From a virus, in IMG/VR virus record IMGVR_UViG_3300036759_000092, positions 1 through 49,501 of that record: DNA of 49,501 bases. One strand, given 5' to 3'. Each line of letters begins with the position of its first letter. Position 1 is the first letter of the stretch. Under the pieces are notes generated by a model. It had not been told where the DNA came from, made no database searches, and saw only the letters and a program-made list of their open reading frames with translations. Below, in pieces: positions 1,640-15,952 of this stretch. Made by a program: the position numbers and the translations under genes.

Positions 1640-2407
1640 CTAGATGTTCAGTCCCTTCCTGACGTCATCGTCAGTCATGCGCTGAGCCTTGGCGAAATCC
1701 TCGAGATCGCTCACGGCCTGACGGATCTTGTCGAGCTTGAGGTCAAGCTCGCGCATGTTGTCGCTGCCCCACACGTCTGAGGACAGGTTGGCGAATGTCA
1801 CCTCCTTTGCCAGCTCGTGCGCCCGACGCAGGTTCCGGTACGCGTCGTTGAGCGTGTTCCACAGACGGCTCTGCGCAGAGTAGCCCGCACCGAACGTGTC
1901 GTCCGTGCGGCGGTCGGCCTGTCTGCGCGCATCCTCCTCGTGGCGGGCCTGTCGGTCAGTGACCTCCAGGTACACCTCGGGCTTCTCCATCAGCCCCTCG
2001 ATGATGTCCGCCTGCTCCTTCACAGGGCGCTGGCTGATGGTGTCGATGCCGTCCCCCTTGCTGCTGCGGATGGCACGGGTCGTTTCCTTGGTGCCGATGA
2101 GCTTGAGCGCATCTGACACGTCGTGTGTCTGGCCCCACGCCTCCTGGTGAACCGAAGGGGAGTAGCCGTCCATCCGCACACCAGGAGGGAACAGACCGGC
2201 CATCTGGCGCTGACGCTGGAGCCAACTGGGAGAGCGACCTCTCCAGCCAGCGATGTCCTTCAGCGTAAGAAACCCGGCGGCGGGCTTCTTACCTCTCTCG
2301 TCGCTGGTATTGGCGACCAGCCAGTCGCCAAGCGCCCACTTGTCCCTGGAGATACTGTCCTCCAGGGCCTCGTACTCGGCACGCAGCCGAGACTCATCCC
2401 TACTCAT
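1640..2407 (-). CDS. Hypothetical helix-turn-helix-containing protein, 255 aa
   Basis: The start at 2407 follows AGGAGGG with a 3-nt gap and a UUCG-capped hairpin (2423-2436). Residues about 45-75 (L-K-D-I-A-G-W-R-G-R-S-P-S-W-L-Q-R) look like a helix-turn-helix that would recognise DNA. The C-terminal two thirds are highly charged and helical, probably coiled coil (about 130-240). The architecture of an N-terminal HTH plus a long coil suits a phage regulator or ParB-like organiser, but I cannot name the family. Confidence 0.7.
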   Translation of the reverse strand: MSRDESRLRAEYEALEDSISRDKWALGDWLVANTSDERGKKPAAGFLTLKDIAGWRGRSPSWLQRQRQMAGLFPPGVRMDGYSPSVHQEAWGQTHDVSDALKLIGTKETTRAIRSSKGDGIDTISQRPVKEQADIIEGLMEKPEVYLEVTDRQARHEEDARRQADRRTDDTFGAGYSAQSRLWNTLNDAYRNLRRAHELAKEVTFANLSSDVWGSDNMRELDLKLDKIRQAVSDLEDFAKAQRMTDDDVRKGLNI

Positions 2408-2422
2408 AGGCCCTCCTATTCT

Positions 2423-2465
2423 GGGGCTTCGGCCCCTCACTGAATTCGGGCACCGCCTGGTGCCC
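2423..2465 (-). promoter_or_regulatory. Tandem hairpins and SD leader of the 1640-2407 gene
   Basis: Two perfect stems lie side by side: GGGGC-UUCG-GCCCC (2423-2436) and GGGCACC-GCCT-GGTGCCC (2448-2465). A third stem (CAGGGAC/GTCCCTG, 2524-2540) lies just past the lysin stop. Between stem and gene on the minus strand is CCCGAATTCAG, which also follows the hairpin ahead of the holin gene near 36.41 kb. Attenuation or RNA processing between the lysin and the downstream gene is likely. Confidence 0.6.
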
Positions 2466-2542
2466 CATTGACAGCGTACGCCAGCGATGCGTCGCTGCCT
2501 AGGGCAAGGAACTGCCCCATTTGCAGGGACTTTGTCCCTGGA

Positions 2543-3043
2543 TCAGACGTAGCGGCGGATGACCATGATGTCGCCGCGATAGTCGTACGGGAGGTAGTAC
2601 GGTCCCGATTCGCTGCCGTGGCTGATCACCATCGGCTTGCCGTTCCGCACGCCGACGATGATCGCGGTGTGCTTGCCCGGAGCGCCGCTCCCGTAGATCA
2701 CGCAGTCGCCGCGTAGGACGTTCTCCACGTGCTGGACGGGCTTCCCGTGGTTGAGCATCGTTCCCGTGTAGCCAGCCTTCCAGGCTGCGCCGTTCACCGT
2801 GTCGCGCACACCGAAGTGGTCCAGCCCGTTCCAGATGCACCACGTCGCCAGCGATGAGCAGTCGGCATAGTCCGGGCATTGATCCCGGTACGCCTTCAGG
2901 TCCTTGTCGATCCCTTCCCATCTACGTGAGCCCTGCGTGTAGTGGAGACGATCACGCCGGTTGTACGCGAGCCACGCCGCGTCGGCGATGAGCTCCCGCG
3001 CCTTGAGGCGATTGGTCTTGCTCAGCCCAGAGACGCTTGCCAT
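2543..3043 (-). CDS. Endolysin, NlpC/P60-type cell-wall peptidase, 166 aa
   Basis: A likely peptidoglycan hydrolase. A D-C-S-S nucleophile box at residues 61-64 and a K-H-T-A-I-I-V-G box with H125 give the Cys/His dyad of NlpC/P60 and CHAP peptidases, which cut peptide stems; a G-D-C-V-I-Y segment (112-117) precedes the histidine as usual for these folds. There is no signal peptide, so release would need a holin; the candidate holin is at 36167-36397. The start overlaps the upstream stop (TGATG, 3041-3045). No separate binding domain is visible, and at 166 aa this is a minimal single-domain lysin. Confidence 0.85.
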   Translation of the reverse strand: MASVSGLSKTNRLKARELIADAAWLAYNRRDRLHYTQGSRRWEGIDKDLKAYRDQCPDYADCSSLATWCIWNGLDHFGVRDTVNGAAWKAGYTGTMLNHGKPVQHVENVLRGDCVIYGSGAPGKHTAIIVGVRNGKPMVISHGSESGPYYLPYDYRGDIMVIRRYV

Positions 3044-3297
3044 CAGCGCCCGCCGAAGCCAGCGCCTCCGCCTGGCGGAATCGGTACGATGCCTGGCGGC
3101 GGGACCACCGATTCGACCGGCGCGGGGGCCTCCGGGTCGGCAGGCTGCTCCTCTTCCTCGTCCGGCTCGACCTCTTCCTTGTCGTCCTCGTCCGGGGTCT
3201 CCGGGGCGTCGGGCTCCTGCGTCTCGTCCTTGACCGGCTCGGCGGCGAGATCCTCGTCGTCGCTGGTGCTGGTGGTCGCCGCCTTCGTAGTGGCCAT
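3043..3297 (-). CDS. Acidic, proline-rich disordered protein, 84 aa
   Basis: The composition is dominated by Glu, Asp, Pro and Ala, with an A-T-T-K-A-A-T-T-S-T start and a glycine-rich end; it is almost certainly intrinsically disordered. AGGAG lies 5 nt before the ATG. It is coupled to the lysin start by TGATG. The role is unknown; a lysis-timing or chaperone role would be guesswork. Confidence 0.75.
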   Translation of the reverse strand: MATTKAATTSTSDDEDLAAEPVKDETQEPDAPETPDEDDKEEVEPDEEEEQPADPEAPAPVESVVPPPGIVPIPPGGGAGFGGR

Positions 3298-3333
3298 CGG
3301 TGCTCCTAAGCTCTGGGAGGACCAACGCTACAC

Positions 3334-4368
3334 CTATCGGGTGAATTGCCATGCTCGCTTGGTGAGCCTGAGCGGCACGTCGTCAGGCCCCTTGACGTAG
3401 GGGGCGATCCAGATCTGGCGATGCTCTCCCAAGCTCGCGTACCACTGGTTCCGCCAGTGTCCGCGGACGACGAAGCGGACCGTCAACCTGCGCCCCGTCG
3501 TCTCCATCTCCTCTTGGCCTTGCCGTCCGCGTCGCAGCGTGATCACAGTCACATCGTCAACCGGGCGCTTCTTCCTCTGGCTGTCACGTCTGAGCTGTCG
3601 CGGCAGACGGGCCTTGGTCGGGACGAGCTGGCTGCCGATGCGCCACATCGTCTGGATCAGGGAGGTCTGCTGGCGGGCACGCTCGCGCACATCTTCGAAG
3701 CTGTCCTCGGCGAGGATGTCGTACGCCTCCGGGTCGTCCAAGCTCTCGTAGCCGGGCTGTCCCCACGACCATTGCCACTGATGGACGATGCTGAACGGCA
3801 TGATCCTGCGGATCTCGTCCCTGCTGTGCACTGGCTCGGGGTCGTCCGGATGGCCCATCTCCAGCCTGGATGGGACGCCACGCTCATCCGCCAGGGCGAA
3901 CTCGTCATCGCAGTGGACGTAGAAGGCGATCCAGTAGGTGCCGACGCTGAGATCCTCGCTGTGGATCGGTAGCCACGCGACTGCGCGGACGGGGATCAGG
4001 CCGATGCCGCTGCGCCACGGATGCGTCTTGGTCACCGGCATATCGTCGATCAGCACCGGGCGCGGGAACAGGCAGAACCCACGCGGCGCGAACGGGTCGT
4101 TCGGCAGTAGCTTCTCCGGCTTCCACTTGGCGCGTGCGTCGTCGATGAGATCGGTCACGTCACTGCTGACGTAGATCGGCTCTGCCTCACGCAGCATCTC
4201 TAGCTGGATACCCGCCAGCACGCGGACATCCCGGCGGGCCTTCTCGGTGTGCTTCTCGTTCATCTCACCGAAGAAGCCGATCAGGTACTTGACCCCGATC
4301 TCCGACTGCGACCACTCCAAGATCTGCTGCTGCGAGATGTAGGCGTCCTCCCACCTCGCGTAGCGCAT
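3334..4368 (-). CDS. Conserved-type hypothetical protein, 344 aa
   Basis: A large cytosolic protein with no family I can name with confidence. The C-terminal part (about 285-344) contains the block V-R-G-H-W-R-N-Q-W-Y, then H-R-Q-I-W-I-A-P-Y-V-K-G-P, a pattern I associate with conserved hypothetical proteins of actinophages and actinobacteria. The start at 4368 overlaps the upstream stop (TGATG); a GTG one codon earlier is possible. It heads the small cluster that ends with the lysin. Confidence 0.75.
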   Translation of the reverse strand: MRYARWEDAYISQQQILEWSQSEIGVKYLIGFFGEMNEKHTEKARRDVRVLAGIQLEMLREAEPIYVSSDVTDLIDDARAKWKPEKLLPNDPFAPRGFCLFPRPVLIDDMPVTKTHPWRSGIGLIPVRAVAWLPIHSEDLSVGTYWIAFYVHCDDEFALADERGVPSRLEMGHPDDPEPVHSRDEIRRIMPFSIVHQWQWSWGQPGYESLDDPEAYDILAEDSFEDVRERARQQTSLIQTMWRIGSQLVPTKARLPRQLRRDSQRKKRPVDDVTVITLRRGRQGQEEMETTGRRLTVRFVVRGHWRNQWYASLGEHRQIWIAPYVKGPDDVPLRLTKRAWQFTR

Positions 4369-4556
4369 CACTCCACCGCGAACATCGCGTCGAAGCAGTA
4401 CTCACAGAGCCCGCTGATCTGGTACTCCCTGCGGCCCGCGTCGCTGTACCACCTCGCGGGCTTCTTACAGCGGGCGCAGATGCTCTTGGCCTGACACTCT
4501 GCGACGTAGCGCTTCCAGGCCTCCATGCTCTCCAGCTCGGGGTGCTCTTCAGCCAT
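4368..4556 (-). CDS. Small zinc-ribbon protein, 62 aa
   Basis: Two C-x2-C knuckles (C27/C30 and C51/C54) separated by about 20 residues make a four-cysteine zinc ribbon. The preceding helix (E7-A23) is amphipathic. The start overlaps the upstream gene by 8 nt. It is one of at least eight tiny cysteine-knuckle proteins in the leftward region; the binding partner is unknown. Confidence 0.8.
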   Translation of the reverse strand: MAEEHPELESMEAWKRYVAECQAKSICARCKKPARWYSDAGRREYQISGLCEYCFDAMFAVE

Positions 4557-10867: not shown

Positions 10868-11095
10868 CTCGTCCTCCTTTCCCCTCCTTTGGGATGGGTA
10901 AGCGAGGCGAGCCCGGGGTCACAGAGCATCGCCAAAGGAGGGTAGGCGAACACCCTCCGGACTCGCCTCATACCATTCCCGCGACCCAAGGCGCGGGCTG
11001 GCACCTTTGAGCCTACAGCAGCGATGTTTCGGCTGCTTCCGTCCCCTCGGACCTCTATGCTCCAGGGCATGCTTATGTCACAGGAGCTGGAGGGG
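10868..11095. promoter_or_regulatory. Divergent control region between early and late blocks
   Basis: 228 bases with no gene. It contains the start-associated box CCCAAAGGAGGGG of the leftward gene and an inverted repeat (10905-10916 with 10957-10968, one mismatch) enclosing a second, opposite-facing CAAAGGAGGG. It also contains minus-strand TAGGCT (10010-offset: bases 11010-11015) within ATCGCTGCTGTAGGCT, a 16-mer shared with 6155-6170. A rightward TATGCT (11056-11061) is the only late -10 candidate and lacks a clear -35. Confidence 0.6.
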
Positions 11096-11737
11096 ATGGC
11101 CATTGATCTGCACGAGCTCGTCCCGCATCCGGGCAACCCGCGCCGCGGGCGCGTGGAGACGATCAAGCGGAGCCTGACGCGCTTCGGGCAGATGCGCCCC
11201 ATCCTCGTCGGCCACAGCGACGGCGTCATCATCGCGGGGAATCACACCTACCTGGCCGCGCAAGAGCTCGGCTGGGAGAAGATCGCATGCGTCTACACCG
11301 ATCTCCCCGACGACGAGGCGACGGCGTACATGCTGATGGACAATCGCAGCAGCGACGAGGCGACCTGGGACGACGATGGGCTCCTCATCGTCCTCAAGGA
11401 CATGGAGCGCAAGGATCTGCTGGACGCCACCGGGTTCAACATCGACGACATCGAGGATCTGGTGGCCGCGCTCGACGCCGTCCGCGAGACCGAGGTGGAG
11501 CAGTTCTCCGGCGACTACACCGAGTCCAGCGAGGAGACCGCGCAGCGCTGGGAGAACAGGAACGAGGGCGCGAACAGAGAGATAGTCCTGCTCCTCCCCA
11601 GGGACCAGTACGAGCCGTTCATGCAGGCGGTGGCGATCCTGAAGCAGCACTACGATCTCGAAAGCGCCGCCCAGACGATCTTCCGCGCCGTCACCACCCA
11701 TGCCGAGGTGCTGCATGCCGAGTCTTCTGCCAGCTAG
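11096..11737 (+). CDS. ParB-like nuclease/Srx-fold protein, 213 aa
   Basis: The N-terminal domain (residues 1-110) matches ParB/sulfiredoxin-like phage proteins: L-V-P-H-P-G-N-P-R-R-G (8-18), S-L-T-R-F-G-Q-M-R-P-I (26-36), G-N-H-T (48-51) and the M-D-N-R motif (81-84). Such domains sit beside methyltransferases and base-modification enzymes in many phages; they bind nucleotides and DNA, and some cut DNA. ATG 11096 was chosen for the AGGAG nine bases upstream. The stop overlaps the next gene by 23 nt, tying it to the glycosyltransferase and dioxygenase. Confidence 0.85.
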   Translation: MAIDLHELVPHPGNPRRGRVETIKRSLTRFGQMRPILVGHSDGVIIAGNHTYLAAQELGWEKIACVYTDLPDDEATAYMLMDNRSSDEATWDDDGLLIVLKDMERKDLLDATGFNIDDIEDLVAALDAVRETEVEQFSGDYTESSEETAQRWENRNEGANREIVLLLPRDQYEPFMQAVAILKQHYDLESAAQTIFRAVTTHAEVLHAESSAS

Positions 11738-12518
11738 CAGTTGGCCCTTCGTCGCCGTCCCGTCCTACCGCCGCGAGCACATCTGCCGTGACCGGACGCT
11801 GAAGCTGCTGGCCAGCCTCCGGGTGCCCAAGGAGCGCATCACCCTCTTCGTCGCCGACGAGGATGAGGCGAGCCGCTACAGCAAGACGATCCCCAGGACG
11901 CTGTGCGGTGACATCGTCATCGCACAGCCGGGGATGGGAGCCGTGCGGCGCTACATCAGCAACTACTACCCCGCGTCCGCCGAGGTGCTCAACGTCGATG
12001 ACGACATCACGGGCTTCTACAGGAAGCTGCACGACAAGCGCTACCAGCCGCTCGACGCGGTGGACTTCCACACCATGATCAAGCTCGGCTTCTGGTCGTG
12101 CAGGGAGATCGACGCCCGGCTGTGGGGAATCTACCCCGTCCTCAACCCGCTCTTCATGAAGCTGCGCATCAACGTCGGGCTGATCTACATCGTGGGGGCG
12201 TTCTGGGGCTGCATCAACTCGCACGACGCTCGTCTCACGGTCACCCTGGACGACAAGGAGGACTTCGAGCGCACCATCAAGCACTTCATCGTGGACGGTG
12301 CCGTCGTCCGCCTGGAGGCCTACAGCCTGCGGACGAGCTACTACACCACTCCGGGCGGGATGCAAGAGACCAGGACCACAGAGCGCGTGACGTCCAGCGC
12401 CAAGTGGCTCGCCCAGCGCTACCCCGAGCTCTGCCGCCTGAACACGGCCAAGAAGTCAGGGCGCACGGAGATCCGCTTGCTGAAGCAGCCGGTGCGTCAG
12501 CGCGAGGTGCTGGCATGA
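11715..12518 (+). CDS. TET-associated glycosyltransferase (TAGT), 267 aa
   Basis: Predicted to attach a sugar to a hydroxymethylated DNA base. The N-terminus F-V-A-V-P-S-Y-R-R (12-20) is the nucleotide-sugar Rossmann strand of the family, L-N-V-D-D-D (92-97) is its metal-binding acidic motif, and L-W-G-I-Y-P-V-L-N-P (136-145) and P-G-G-M-Q near the end are further hallmark blocks. Length fits a single-domain enzyme. It overlaps the ParB-like gene and overlaps the dioxygenase start as ATGA, so the three are made together. The sugar and the exact base cannot be read from sequence. Confidence 0.85.
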   Translation: MPSLLPASSWPFVAVPSYRREHICRDRTLKLLASLRVPKERITLFVADEDEASRYSKTIPRTLCGDIVIAQPGMGAVRRYISNYYPASAEVLNVDDDITGFYRKLHDKRYQPLDAVDFHTMIKLGFWSCREIDARLWGIYPVLNPLFMKLRINVGLIYIVGAFWGCINSHDARLTVTLDDKEDFERTIKHFIVDGAVVRLEAYSLRTSYYTTPGGMQETRTTERVTSSAKWLAQRYPELCRLNTAKKSGRTEIRLLKQPVRQREVLA

Positions 12519-13393
12519 TCGAGGCGCGTCTGCGGACCAAGATAAGCGCCGCCGAGATGGAGACGAAGATCGGCAAGATCTTGACACCGACCGACATCAA
12601 TCTCAGTCTCACAGGTCCGGCGCGCATACTCCTCCCGGACGGCAAGCCGCTCTGCGTCTACCTCCCGGGAGGCGTCCTGGTGGAGATGGACGCAGTGTGG
12701 CCGACGTTGCGCAAGATCAAGATGACGACCGACAATCGCGGTCTGGCCAGCGGGACGCAGCGCGTCAGCGCGGGAGGCAACCGGACGCGGACCATGCCCG
12801 TCTTCAGCGGGATAATGGGCGCGATGGATGCCGGTCCCGGGCGCGGCTACTGTCGGCTGACCAACTTCACGCGTGAGAACGCCGAGGTCTGGGACATGCT
12901 CGCGCCGCTGCTGCGCGCTATCGCTGCCAAGTTCGCCCAGCACGTCCCAGATCGCTACGCCAACCAGAGCCAGGTTTCACGTTTTACGGAGAGGGATTGG
13001 GTCGTACAACGGACGCCCTTCACCACCATCACGGTGAACAACAGCTACTCCACGGGCGTCCACAAGGACAAGGGCGATCTGGATGCCGGGTTCTCGTGTC
13101 TCGCGGTCGGGCGGGGGGGGGAGTTCGACGGCGGCTGGCTCGTCTTCCCAGAGTACCGCGTCGGCGTGGACATGCGCCACGGCGATCTCCTCCTCATGGA
13201 CGCGCATCAGTGGCACGGGAACACCGCGATGGTCTGCCGTTGCGGGGAGAAGATGTCCCGGCGACCCTGTAGCCTCTGCGGTGCGGAACGAGTTTCCGTC
13301 GTGGCGTACTACCGCACGAAGATGCAAGTCTGCGGGACGCAACAACAGGAGAACGACAAGCGCGTTGCGGCCCTGGAGGCACGAGCACGATGA
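12515..13393 (+). CDS. TET/JBP-family 2-oxoglutarate Fe(II) dioxygenase, 292 aa
   Basis: A DNA base oxidase. H183-K-D185 is the proximal H-x-D iron triad, W-H234-G-N supplies the distal histidine, and R259 or R267 (R-V-S-V-V-A-Y-Y-R) can bind the 2-oxoglutarate carboxylate. C241, C243, C252 and C255 form a zinc knuckle between the last two motifs, as in phage TET/JBP proteins. It would hydroxylate the methyl group of 5-methylcytosine or thymine for the adjacent TAGT enzyme. The last 25 or so residues are nearly repeated at the end of the next gene. Start by ATGA overlap. Confidence 0.88.
   Translation: MIEARLRTKISAAEMETKIGKILTPTDINLSLTGPARILLPDGKPLCVYLPGGVLVEMDAVWPTLRKIKMTTDNRGLASGTQRVSAGGNRTRTMPVFSGIMGAMDAGPGRGYCRLTNFTRENAEVWDMLAPLLRAIAAKFAQHVPDRYANQSQVSRFTERDWVVQRTPFTTITVNNSYSTGVHKDKGDLDAGFSCLAVGRGGEFDGGWLVFPEYRVGVDMRHGDLLLMDAHQWHGNTAMVCRCGEKMSRRPCSLCGAERVSVVAYYRTKMQVCGTQQQENDKRVAALEARAR
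13309..13393 (+). repeat. Direct repeat, copy 1 (3' end of the dioxygenase gene)
   Basis: About 80 bases, roughly three quarters identical to 13746-13830, in the same reading sense. It encodes the Y-Y-R-T-K-M-Q to V-A-A-L-E-A-R segment of the dioxygenase. Confidence 0.85.
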
Positions 13394-13842
13394 TCTGCTC
13401 CAAATGCGGCGAGGATAAGGAGACCGGCGACTTCTACGCTGGTCGCCGGGCGTGCAAGGAGTGCGACAAGCGCCGGGTTGGTGAGTGGCAGAAGGCACAT
13501 CGCGACGGCGCGTACATGCGACTGTGGCGCTACGGGATCAGCGAGGAGGACTTCCACGCTCTGCTCACTGAACAAGACGGGCGGGGTGCAATCTGTCGTC
13601 AGGTGATGACGAAGCCGCACATAGACCACAGTCACAAGACTGGTGAGATCCGGGGTCTGCTCTGCTTCCATTGCAATGCTGGCCTTGGCCACTTCAAGGA
13701 TTCGCCTGCACTGATGCGCCGAGCGCTCGCTTATAGTCAAGGTCGCTACTACCGGACAAAGATGCAGAAGTGCGGGACACCCGAACAGGAAAACCACAAG
13801 CGCGTCGCGGCCCTCGAAAGCCGCACGACGACCGCTGCCTGA
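13390..13842 (+). CDS. Recombination endonuclease VII-like HNH protein, 150 aa
   Basis: C3-x2-C6 and C22-x2-C25, then H77-I-D79-H80-S-H82 with C69, C92 and C95 match the endonuclease VII fold (zinc plus beta-beta-alpha-metal nuclease), which as a free-standing gene commonly behaves as a homing endonuclease. The core ends near residue 117. Residues 120-146 are foreign to the family and instead copy the C-terminus of the upstream dioxygenase. It starts inside the dioxygenase stop (ATGA). Best read as a mobile nuclease gene inserted at the 3' end of the dioxygenase gene. Confidence 0.85.
   Translation: MICSKCGEDKETGDFYAGRRACKECDKRRVGEWQKAHRDGAYMRLWRYGISEEDFHALLTEQDGRGAICRQVMTKPHIDHSHKTGEIRGLLCFHCNAGLGHFKDSPALMRRALAYSQGRYYRTKMQKCGTPEQENHKRVAALESRTTTAA
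13746..13830 (+). repeat. Direct repeat, copy 2 (3' end of the endonuclease gene)
   Basis: Counterpart of 13309-13393. Codes for Y-Y-R-T-K-M-Q-K-C-G-T and K-R-V-A-A-L-E-S-R. Probably the displaced original 3' end of the dioxygenase gene. Confidence 0.85.
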
Positions 13843-13902
13843 TCACGAGGCAGTGGTTCAGTGGCTACCAGCCGCCGATGCGGGAACAGTTGAGCCTCTT
13901 CG

Positions 13903-14439
13903 ATGAGCGAGAGCAACGGGCATCTAGCGGACGAGGAAGAGCGCCGCGCAGCGCGTCGCGCTGAGGTCGCACGCGATACCCGGGCGGGCATCCTCGACAG
14001 AGCGCGGAGACGCCATCGCATCTTGGAGCTGCGTGCGGCTGGTCTCACCGAGCAGCAGATAGCCGACCGGCTCAGCATGACGCAGAGCAACGTCAGCCGC
14101 GCTCTCAATCGCGTCATGCAGAAGTGGGGCGAGGAGGACGAGGAGAACGTCCGCGCCGTCCGCAACATGAAGCTGTTCGAGCTGGACCAGCTCAAGCGGG
14201 CGGTCTGGGCGAATGCGCTGCAAGGCGACGTCAAGGCGGTGCGCGAGGCGATGCGCATCATCGAGTTGCAGGCCAAGATCAGCGGCGCCAGCGCCCCCAT
14301 CCGCATCGAGCGGCGCACCACCGTTGACCTCGGCGGGATCGACACCGCAGAGATCGATCGCATGGAGACCGCCTGGCTGGAGGCGGGTGGTGAGATCATC
14401 GAGGGTGTGATCGCGGAAGAGGACGATGGCAACACCTGA
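13903..14439 (+). CDS. Terminase small subunit, 178 aa
   Basis: DNA-recognition subunit of the packaging motor. Residues about 40-72 form a clear helix-turn-helix (L-E-L-R-A-A-G-L-T-E-Q-Q-I-A and S-M-T-Q-S-N-V-S-R-A), followed by a long helical oligomerisation region and an acidic tail that would contact the large subunit. It overlaps terL by 14 nt. No strong Shine-Dalgarno lies before ATG 13903. The 60-base gap after the endonuclease holds nothing else I can support. Confidence 0.8.
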   Translation: MSESNGHLADEEERRAARRAEVARDTRAGILDRARRRHRILELRAAGLTEQQIADRLSMTQSNVSRALNRVMQKWGEEDEENVRAVRNMKLFELDQLKRAVWANALQGDVKAVREAMRIIELQAKISGASAPIRIERRTTVDLGGIDTAEIDRMETAWLEAGGEIIEGVIAEEDDGNT

Positions 14440-15952
14440 GGAGAAGCGGGTCCAGCGCGTCAAGCGGGCGCTGGCCAACCCCGTCTTCTTCGCAGAGACG
14501 TACTTCCGCCCCTACGACCAGAGCTGGGCGTCGAGCATGCCTGCGTTCGCACAGGACATGCTCCGCTTCATCAGGTCGAACTCGCGCAGCGTGGTCATGC
14601 TCCCGCCCGAGTTCATGAAGACGACGATCTGTAGCCAGGTCTACCCGCTCTGGCTGACGTACCGCGCCGCCATCATGCAGAAGCTGCTGCGCGGGATGCT
14701 GGCCAGCGAGGAGGAGGGGTTGGCCGCGTCGAATCTCAGCGTGGTCGCGTGGCACATCGAGAACAACGAGTTCCTCTCCCGGGACTTTGTCGATCCCAAG
14801 GGCAAGCGTCTGGTCTACCCCGACCCCACGGAGGACACCTGGCGCTACGACGCCATCATCGTCAACCGCCACGGCGCATCGAAAGACCCCACCTGGCAGG
14901 CGAAGGGATTGGACAGCAAGGGCGTCCAGGGTCGCCGCATCGACGTGCTCATCGCCGATGATCTGGTGACGCCCAAGAACGCCATGTCACCGACGCTGCG
15001 TCGCCGCGCCCTCGACTTCTGGGATCTCCAGTTCGAGACGCGGCTCGTCGCCAGTGGCCAGGCCATCGTCTCGGGCAACTTCAACGACATACGCGATCTC
15101 GTCTCCACGCTCTCCGCTCGTCCCGGGTACAAGCTCTTCAAGCGGCCCAGCATCGCCAAGCTCGACAACCCCAGCGAGCCCCCGCGTGAGCAAGACCTGG
15201 AAAGCGATGCCAAGAGCACCCTCACCTGGCCGGAGGTCTGGACGCGGGAGCGGCTCTTCAACGAGCGCAAGATGAAGCCGCAGCGCTTCCGGCGCATCCA
15301 TCTGCTGGACAGCCGCGCCGAGATGGGCGAGCAGCTCAAGATCGAGTGGGTGCAGATCCTCGATCCCAACGAGACCCCGCTGAAGTACTGCCGCTTCTAC
15401 ATGGGGATCGACCCGGCGCCTGGCAGCGGCGACGACGACCCCGACTTCTTCAACATCACGGTGGGCGCGCTCCACGGCTCCAACCTCGACGTCGTCGAGA
15501 TACGCGACGTGCGTGCGCCGATCCCGCGTCAGTGCGCGCTGGTCGGCATCCTCCATGATCGCTACCAGCGCCTCGGCATGGGCGTGATCGCCATCGGCGG
15601 GGCCAAGATCACGCTCGACCGCTACTTCCGGGGTGCCCTTTCGATTGCCCGAAAGGACCTGACGCACAAGCTGGTGGAGATCAGCGTGGCGGGCGCGAAG
15701 GAGGAGCGGCTTGAGGCGCTGGGGCCGTTCGCGCAGAGCGGCTTCATGCGCTGCTGGGAGCCGACGTGGCTCGGCCTGACGGCGGATGTGACCGACCAGT
15801 GGCAGGAGCTGAGCCTGTACGAGCAGTGGCGCGACTTCCCGCACGCACGCCATGACGACAAGCTCGACGGCCTCGACGTGATGGTGCGCACGGCCAATCA
15901 GTTCGCGATGGTCGGCGAGCAGACGATAGACGTGGAGGTGCTGGAGGCATGA
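14426..15952 (+). CDS. terL: Terminase large subunit, 508 aa
   Basis: ATPase and nuclease that drives DNA packaging. A deviant Walker A (L-P-P-E-F-M-K-T-T, 59-67), Walker B (I-D-V-L-I-A-D-D, 172-179) and an RNase H-like nuclease are visible: M-G-I-D-P-A-P-G (about residue 330) provides the first acidic residue and H-D-D-K-L-D-G-L-D near the end the last ones. Full family length. It is translationally coupled to the small subunit and to the zinc-ribbon gene after it. Packaging type cannot be proved from sequence, but the closing 127-mer fits circularly permuted headful DNA. Confidence 0.95.
   Translation: MATPEEKRVQRVKRALANPVFFAETYFRPYDQSWASSMPAFAQDMLRFIRSNSRSVVMLPPEFMKTTICSQVYPLWLTYRAAIMQKLLRGMLASEEEGLAASNLSVVAWHIENNEFLSRDFVDPKGKRLVYPDPTEDTWRYDAIIVNRHGASKDPTWQAKGLDSKGVQGRRIDVLIADDLVTPKNAMSPTLRRRALDFWDLQFETRLVASGQAIVSGNFNDIRDLVSTLSARPGYKLFKRPSIAKLDNPSEPPREQDLESDAKSTLTWPEVWTRERLFNERKMKPQRFRRIHLLDSRAEMGEQLKIEWVQILDPNETPLKYCRFYMGIDPAPGSGDDDPDFFNITVGALHGSNLDVVEIRDVRAPIPRQCALVGILHDRYQRLGMGVIAIGGAKITLDRYFRGALSIARKDLTHKLVEISVAGAKEERLEALGPFAQSGFMRCWEPTWLGLTADVTDQWQELSLYEQWRDFPHARHDDKLDGLDVMVRTANQFAMVGEQTIDVEVLEA

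Follow-up and report, generated by a model that had tools for sequence, protein, structure and literature searches.

Duplicated ends of a phage dioxygenase gene around an endonuclease VII gene: a candidate homing insertion that needs no splicing

The end of a TET/JBP-type dioxygenase gene occurs twice in the DNA of an uncultivated phage, once as the 3′ end of the dioxygenase gene itself (tail 1) and once, in frame, as the C-terminus of an endonuclease VII gene that follows it (tail 2). The window analysed here, meaning the whole 49.5 kb stretch of DNA, is a single viral contig from IMG/VR, and the features of the locus are collected in Table 1. Our preferred reading, to which we assign a probability of roughly 0.7, is that a homing-type endonuclease VII inserted itself at the dioxygenase gene's 3′ end and brought with it a replacement tail from a related phage. 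Together with the ParB-like and glycosyltransferase genes upstream, the dioxygenase gene forms a trio that we take to be a DNA base-hypermodification cassette.

Table 1. Features of the dioxygenase and endonuclease VII locus in the window.
Feature	Position	Strand	Basis or remark
ParB-like gene	11024-11737		upstream in the neighbourhood of the duplication
TET-associated glycosyltransferase	11700-12518		score below Pfam cut-off
TET/JBP-type 2OG-Fe dioxygenase, 292 aa, host gene	12515-13393	+	Pfam PF12851 Tet_JBP, residues 108-267, E 4e-21
Tail 1, dioxygenase 3′ end, last ~28 codons and stop, YYRTKMQVCGTQQQENDKRVAALEARAR then stop	13307-13393	+	boundary at TACTACCG; structure model
ATGA overlap of nuclease start codon and dioxygenase stop codon (TGA)	13390-13393	+	sequence, ORF list
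Endonuclease VII gene, whole ORF	13390-13842	+	directly behind dioxygenase gene
Endonuclease VII body	13390-13746	+	Pfam PF02945, residues 45-116; alignments A1, A5; GC3
Codon GGT (Gly66) replacing first zinc-ligand Cys, GAIC not CAIC	13585-13587	+	alignments A1, A5
Tail 2, in-frame nuclease C-terminus, YYRTKMQKCGTPEQENHKRVAALESRTTTAA then stop	13747-13842	+	collinear with L002 and L312 3′ ends and downstream bases
Native downstream flank, around CTGATCAC...AGT..TTC	13843-13902	+	L002/L312 alignments; conserved alternative-frame peptide
HTH gene, probably terminase small subunit	13903-14439	+	Pfam HTH_23; gene order
Probable terminase large subunit	14426-15952		no Pfam match

Compared over 27 codons without gaps, tail 1 and tail 2 are identical at 60 of 81 bases (74%) and 21 of 27 residues, and both remain in frame. 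The similarity is detected by blastn (E 6e-11) as well as tblastn (E 5e-8), and its onset is sharp at TACTACCG in both copies. The first-pass annotation had reported a dioxygenase end repeated on the endonuclease C-terminus, with copies about three quarters identical over some 80 bases, and these values bear out both the repeat and its coordinates. Dispersed repeats were ruled out as the cause of the duplication, since the next-best ungapped match to the tail-1 81-mer in the window reaches only 42/81. Of the 21 substitutions between the tails, 13 fall at third codon positions (P = 0.007), a bias indicating that most of the divergence took place under protein-coding constraint. The structure model of the dioxygenase contains a strand at residues 258-265 followed by helices at 268-272 and 276-291, with tail 1 starting directly behind this last strand. 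As modelled, the tail thus comprises the C-terminal helices, and exchanging the duplicated unit swaps a helical cap while leaving the oxygenase core untouched.

Which of the two copies stands in the old position? Scans for the dioxygenase, from each of which the best-ranked matches were taken, yielded 146 loci, 102 of them distinct and 96 with at least 600 bases downstream. An endonuclease VII profile detected no nuclease behind the dioxygenase in any of the 102 distinct relatives listed, a tail of this kind closes the dioxygenase in nearly every relative whose 3′ end is included, and a second one was absent from all 62 loci of the first scan. The closest relatives among the matches listed, L002 (71% identical) and L312 (73%), lack the nuclease, and the terminase small-subunit (HTH) gene comes directly after the dioxygenase. 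From TACTACCG onward both are collinear with tail 2 and beyond (window GCTGCCTGATCACGAGGCAGTGGTTC, L002 GGTGTCTGATCACAACGGAGTATTTC, L312 GACTGCCTCATCACCCGCGAGTGGTTC). The aligned dioxygenase end and the bases that follow read GGTGTCTGATCAC in L002, GACTGCCTCATCACC..GAGTGGTTC in L312 and GCTGCCTGATCAC..CAGTGGTTC in the window, and tail 2 is read in the former dioxygenase frame, which runs to the same stop position as in L002. Given this downstream collinearity, the alignments place tail 2 in the native position and identify tail 1 plus the nuclease body as the added unit, so that the downstream copy is the native one, as it is in the mobile ORFs discussed below. The empty-site relatives thereby reveal the direction of insertion. 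They also agree with what the first-pass annotation had predicted, namely that the dioxygenases of relatives without the nuclease would end in the copy now carried by the nuclease; its two potential refutations, paired tails in relatives without the nuclease and a tail normal to the nuclease family, were not encountered in the 62 loci or in the nuclease alignments described below.

HNH or endonuclease VII genes do occur in L017 and L344, but elsewhere and not behind the dioxygenase. In L344 the endonuclease VII gene (1998-2414) lies two genes upstream of the dioxygenase, has an ATGA overlap with the preceding stop and is accompanied by no duplicated end. An alternative frame at 13770-13964 (+) of the window overlaps tail 2, and its core at 13836-13904, CLITRQWFSGYQPPMREQLSLFD, is conserved directly after the dioxygenase in L002 (4816-4980) and L312 (3021-3179), possibly as a small unannotated gene.

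The collinear flank fixes the position of the copies, and a further question is how the second copy arose. One alternative hypothesis, which we consider unlikely, is that the dioxygenase tail was tandemly duplicated in place and that illegitimate recombination placed an endonuclease VII gene, as a passive passenger, between the two copies. The greater likeness of the tails to each other (60/81) than to L002 (tail 1 55/81 bases, tail 2 52/81) or to L312 (46/81 and 50/81) speaks for such a duplication, as does the fact that no donor carrying dioxygenase, then this nuclease, then a downstream gene was found among the relatives scanned. However, this history calls for two events, a tandem tail occurs in none of the relatives examined (62 loci), and the same layout surrounds an endonuclease VII gene in an unrelated gene (L127, below). 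Third-position divergence also weighs against it, being 13/27 (48%) between the tails and 124/264 (47%) between the whole dioxygenase genes of the window and L002. Divergence at the L002 level combined with protein-level constraint is expected of tails from two separate lineages, whereas under local duplication it would imply long selection on a copy that had no job.

Attempts to name the native tail by similarity alone failed, with tail 1 marginally closer to L002 and tail 2 closer to L312, and the tails are too short for placement on a tree. Tail 2 is the more family-like by residues, lying nearer to 80 of 137 relatives while tail 1 lies nearer to 9, in a set of non-independent sequences. 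The GC3 of the nuclease body is 0.71 as against 0.88 in the neighbouring genes (P = 1e-7). Compared with these native neighbours, tail 2 shows no difference (P = 0.15), and tail 1 departs weakly (P = 0.01), a difference that some dioxygenase segments equal. Taken together, the typicality of tail 2, the third-position divergence and GC3 make an old local duplication less likely, in our view, than delivery of tail 1 together with the nuclease by a phage that was related but not the same. A co-conversion tract was looked for in the body of the dioxygenase gene and not seen.

The nuclease itself belongs to the endonuclease VII family, matching PF02945 with E 1.9e-20 and 73 bits against a cut-off of 23.6. 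Its homologues end within a few residues of the start of tail 2 (alignments A1 and A5), so that the domain is already complete and the fusion extends it by about 30 residues, and tail 2 can be ruled out as a normal endonuclease VII tail. The DH.H motif, the conserved Arg and the second CxxC with its Asn are kept (D79, H80, H82, R88, C92, C95, N96). The first CX2-4C zinc pair is incomplete, with Gly66 replacing the first Cys and Cys69 retained. The corresponding column is otherwise Cys in A1 and A5 and is Cys in nearly all of the 93 domains listed; the Gly66 codon is GGT, where TGT would encode Cys. In T4 endonuclease VII, replacing zinc-site Cys by Ser, as in the C23S mutant, abolishes activity (PMC6083498). 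Because this near-invariant zinc cysteine is lost, the nuclease of the window is probably inactive now. The Cys66 to Gly change may reflect decay or a sequencing error in the single contig, both of which are possible. Homing nucleases often decay after becoming established.

Could tail 2 instead be present because it now serves a function, either as an extra nuclease helix for binding, dimerisation or targeting, or through the overlapping frame at 13770-13964, whose beginning it encodes? Tail 2 retains the family-invariant Y, R, C and E, the overlapping-frame core CLITxxWF..Q.LF is conserved in three phages, and the nuclease structure model, built from alignment rows of viral contigs only, predicts a helix for tail 2 with fair confidence (pLDDT about 77-81). 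On the other side, tail 2 is a plain dioxygenase tail that recency alone would make look conserved, it is absent from all other endonuclease VII proteins aligned in A1 and A5, and the low overall pTM of 0.57 leaves its packing undefined. A present role, which we think very improbable, would in any case account for the retention of tail 2 and not for its origin. Least credible of all is a chimeric assembly in which two strains present together, the first with dioxygenase, tail 1 and nuclease and the second lacking the nuclease, were joined. The record is indeed an IMG/VR contig, but a difference of 26% between the tails exceeds what a simple mis-join would leave, the reading frame of the nuclease continues through tail 2 as far as the region of the ancestral stop codon, and the genes on either side are ordered as in relatives.

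Under the preferred reading, entry of a homing-type nuclease, the incoming unit would consist of the replacement dioxygenase tail and the nuclease body, derived from a related phage in which the nuclease lay behind the same gene. We infer that cleavage by the nuclease itself set off the insertion: the recipient's tail would have suffered a double-strand break, which was then repaired from a donor arranged as dioxygenase, tail 1 and nuclease. On the left side, repair would have used homology in the dioxygenase gene, with the donor tail taking the place of the resident one and the enzyme remaining complete. Co-conversion of flanking gene sequence is established in intronless phage homing, and the left-hand join proposed here follows that precedent (PMC2988022). 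On the right side, the join would have formed at the leftover resident tail (YYRTKM) and not at the downstream gene, making that tail the C-terminus of the nuclease, which probably decayed afterwards by the Cys66 to Gly change. On a simple reading, a free-standing nuclease located behind a gene would as a rule home cleanly, using homology on either side, and joining of the right side within the remaining target would leave a duplicated end as a scar. Besides the cut, it is the right-hand join, the one-sided homology and the donor origin of tail 1 that we infer.

How does this arrangement compare with known modes of gene invasion? The nearest counterparts are the mobile ORFs of fungal mitochondria, described in Glomus atp6, atp9, cox2 and nad3 and in atp6 of Allomyces macrogynus. 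Such an ORF supplies the gene with a C-terminus of foreign origin, and the native C-terminus ends up downstream of the endonuclease (PMC3630166). As in the window, the endonuclease sits near the 3′ end of the gene, the replacement C-terminus keeps the gene whole, and the copies differ far more than a recent local duplication predicts (PMC3630166). The window shares the duplicated gene end on either side of an endonuclease ORF with an intact host ORF, and its divergence and third-position GC are compatible with a foreign donor, although none was found among the relatives scanned. The fungal elements encode LAGLIDADG or GIY-YIG enzymes in organelle DNA, whereas the nuclease here is of endonuclease VII type in a phage, and its displaced end is fused to it in frame. 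The first-pass annotation's account, entry of a homing-type endonuclease with its own replacement gene end, gains from the nuclease-less relatives, the collinear flank and the absence of a family tail, but the trick is not new in kind (PMC3630166). By analogy, the layout is one known from fungal mitochondria, and what appears new is the phage setting, the endonuclease VII and the in-frame fusion of the displaced end; a mode of gene invasion from fungal mitochondria would thus now be seen in a phage with an unrelated nuclease family.

Endonuclease VII-type homing enzymes are known in phages (PMC6083498). Like the window nuclease, F-CphI has the DHxH, Arg, CxxC and Asn of this catalytic family and is free-standing beside the gene it targets, but it works with an intron and no copy of the target end is described for it, while the candidate nuclease here is without one zinc cysteine (PMC6083498). 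SegF, SegG and MobE of T-even phages are likewise intronless and co-convert flanking gene sequence, and the MobE start overlaps the upstream stop (UAAUGA) much as in the window (AUGA); however, no duplicated gene end is described for the T-even free-standing homing endonucleases, and MobE in phage Aeh1 splits its gene in two with no repair (PMC2988022). Group I introns and inteins also leave the invaded gene functional, but they do so by splicing, whereas the dioxygenase ORF is complete as DNA with its own stop, and no group I intron or other known RNA was found in the window at Rfam gathering thresholds. A phage precedent for the replacement-end layout was not found in the open-access literature, to which the search was confined.

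To place the layout in a broader context, 204 distinct endonuclease VII loci, the best-ranked scan matches, were surveyed for cases in which the end of an adjacent gene recurs on the other side of the nuclease. The flanks were compared with filtering, as an unfiltered six-frame comparison gave only composition noise. One further case passed among the 204 loci listed, L127 (1619-3454), in which the gene concerned is an unrelated, major capsid-like gene. This gene ends ...KILRAEAIVTARVNIA then stop, and is followed by a group I intron at 2692-2931 (Rfam RF00028, E 6.5e-17), an endonuclease VII ORF at 2950-3423 and a second capsid end, KILRPEAIVTARVNIA then stop, after which comes the ribosome site of the next gene. 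The modelled 5′ splice site falls at about the last capsid codon, so the capsid gene would be complete without splicing. Judged from its sequence, L127 is an independent second case of a duplicated gene end around endonuclease VII. In 10 related loci (L155-L164), a gene of the same capsid family is immediately followed by endonuclease VII, and neither an intron nor a repeated end is present. Both L127 and these free-standing genes add to the evidence for the proposed origin. We tentatively hypothesize, at somewhat less than even odds, that invasion of essential-gene 3′ ends by phage homing nucleases is recurrent, needs no splicing and proceeds via one-sided homologous repair, and that it took place independently here and in L127. 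Such repair would carry the donor gene end along and leave the old one trapped on the nuclease or behind it. If general, this route would explain homing nucleases in essential genes that have neither intron nor intein, and the duplicated gene end around a nuclease would be a searchable scar with which to map past homing events and swapped gene ends. If true, it could also turn introns into splice-free inserts and spread nucleases to new genomic contexts.

The remaining survey matches were dismissed as nuclease paralogues (L066), adjacent paralogous genes (L098), a dispersed repeat (L082), a weak protein match (L090) or short DNA matches (L103, L245, L252). The free-standing genes of L155-L164 mostly start 20-30 bases behind the major capsid gene, about 65 in L161, and form a natural set for testing intronless homing. 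In L066 (Synechococcus phage 7B11-B), three endonuclease VII genes and one HNH gene are clustered among small genes at 2486-4479, and one of the endonuclease VII genes overlaps the terminase small-subunit gene. L064 contains, at 2099-3028, an ORF that resembles a LAGLIDADG homing endonuclease by eye and lies between two capsid-like gene pieces. In L103, a perfect 20-base direct repeat (139-158 and 591-610) flanks the endonuclease VII gene.
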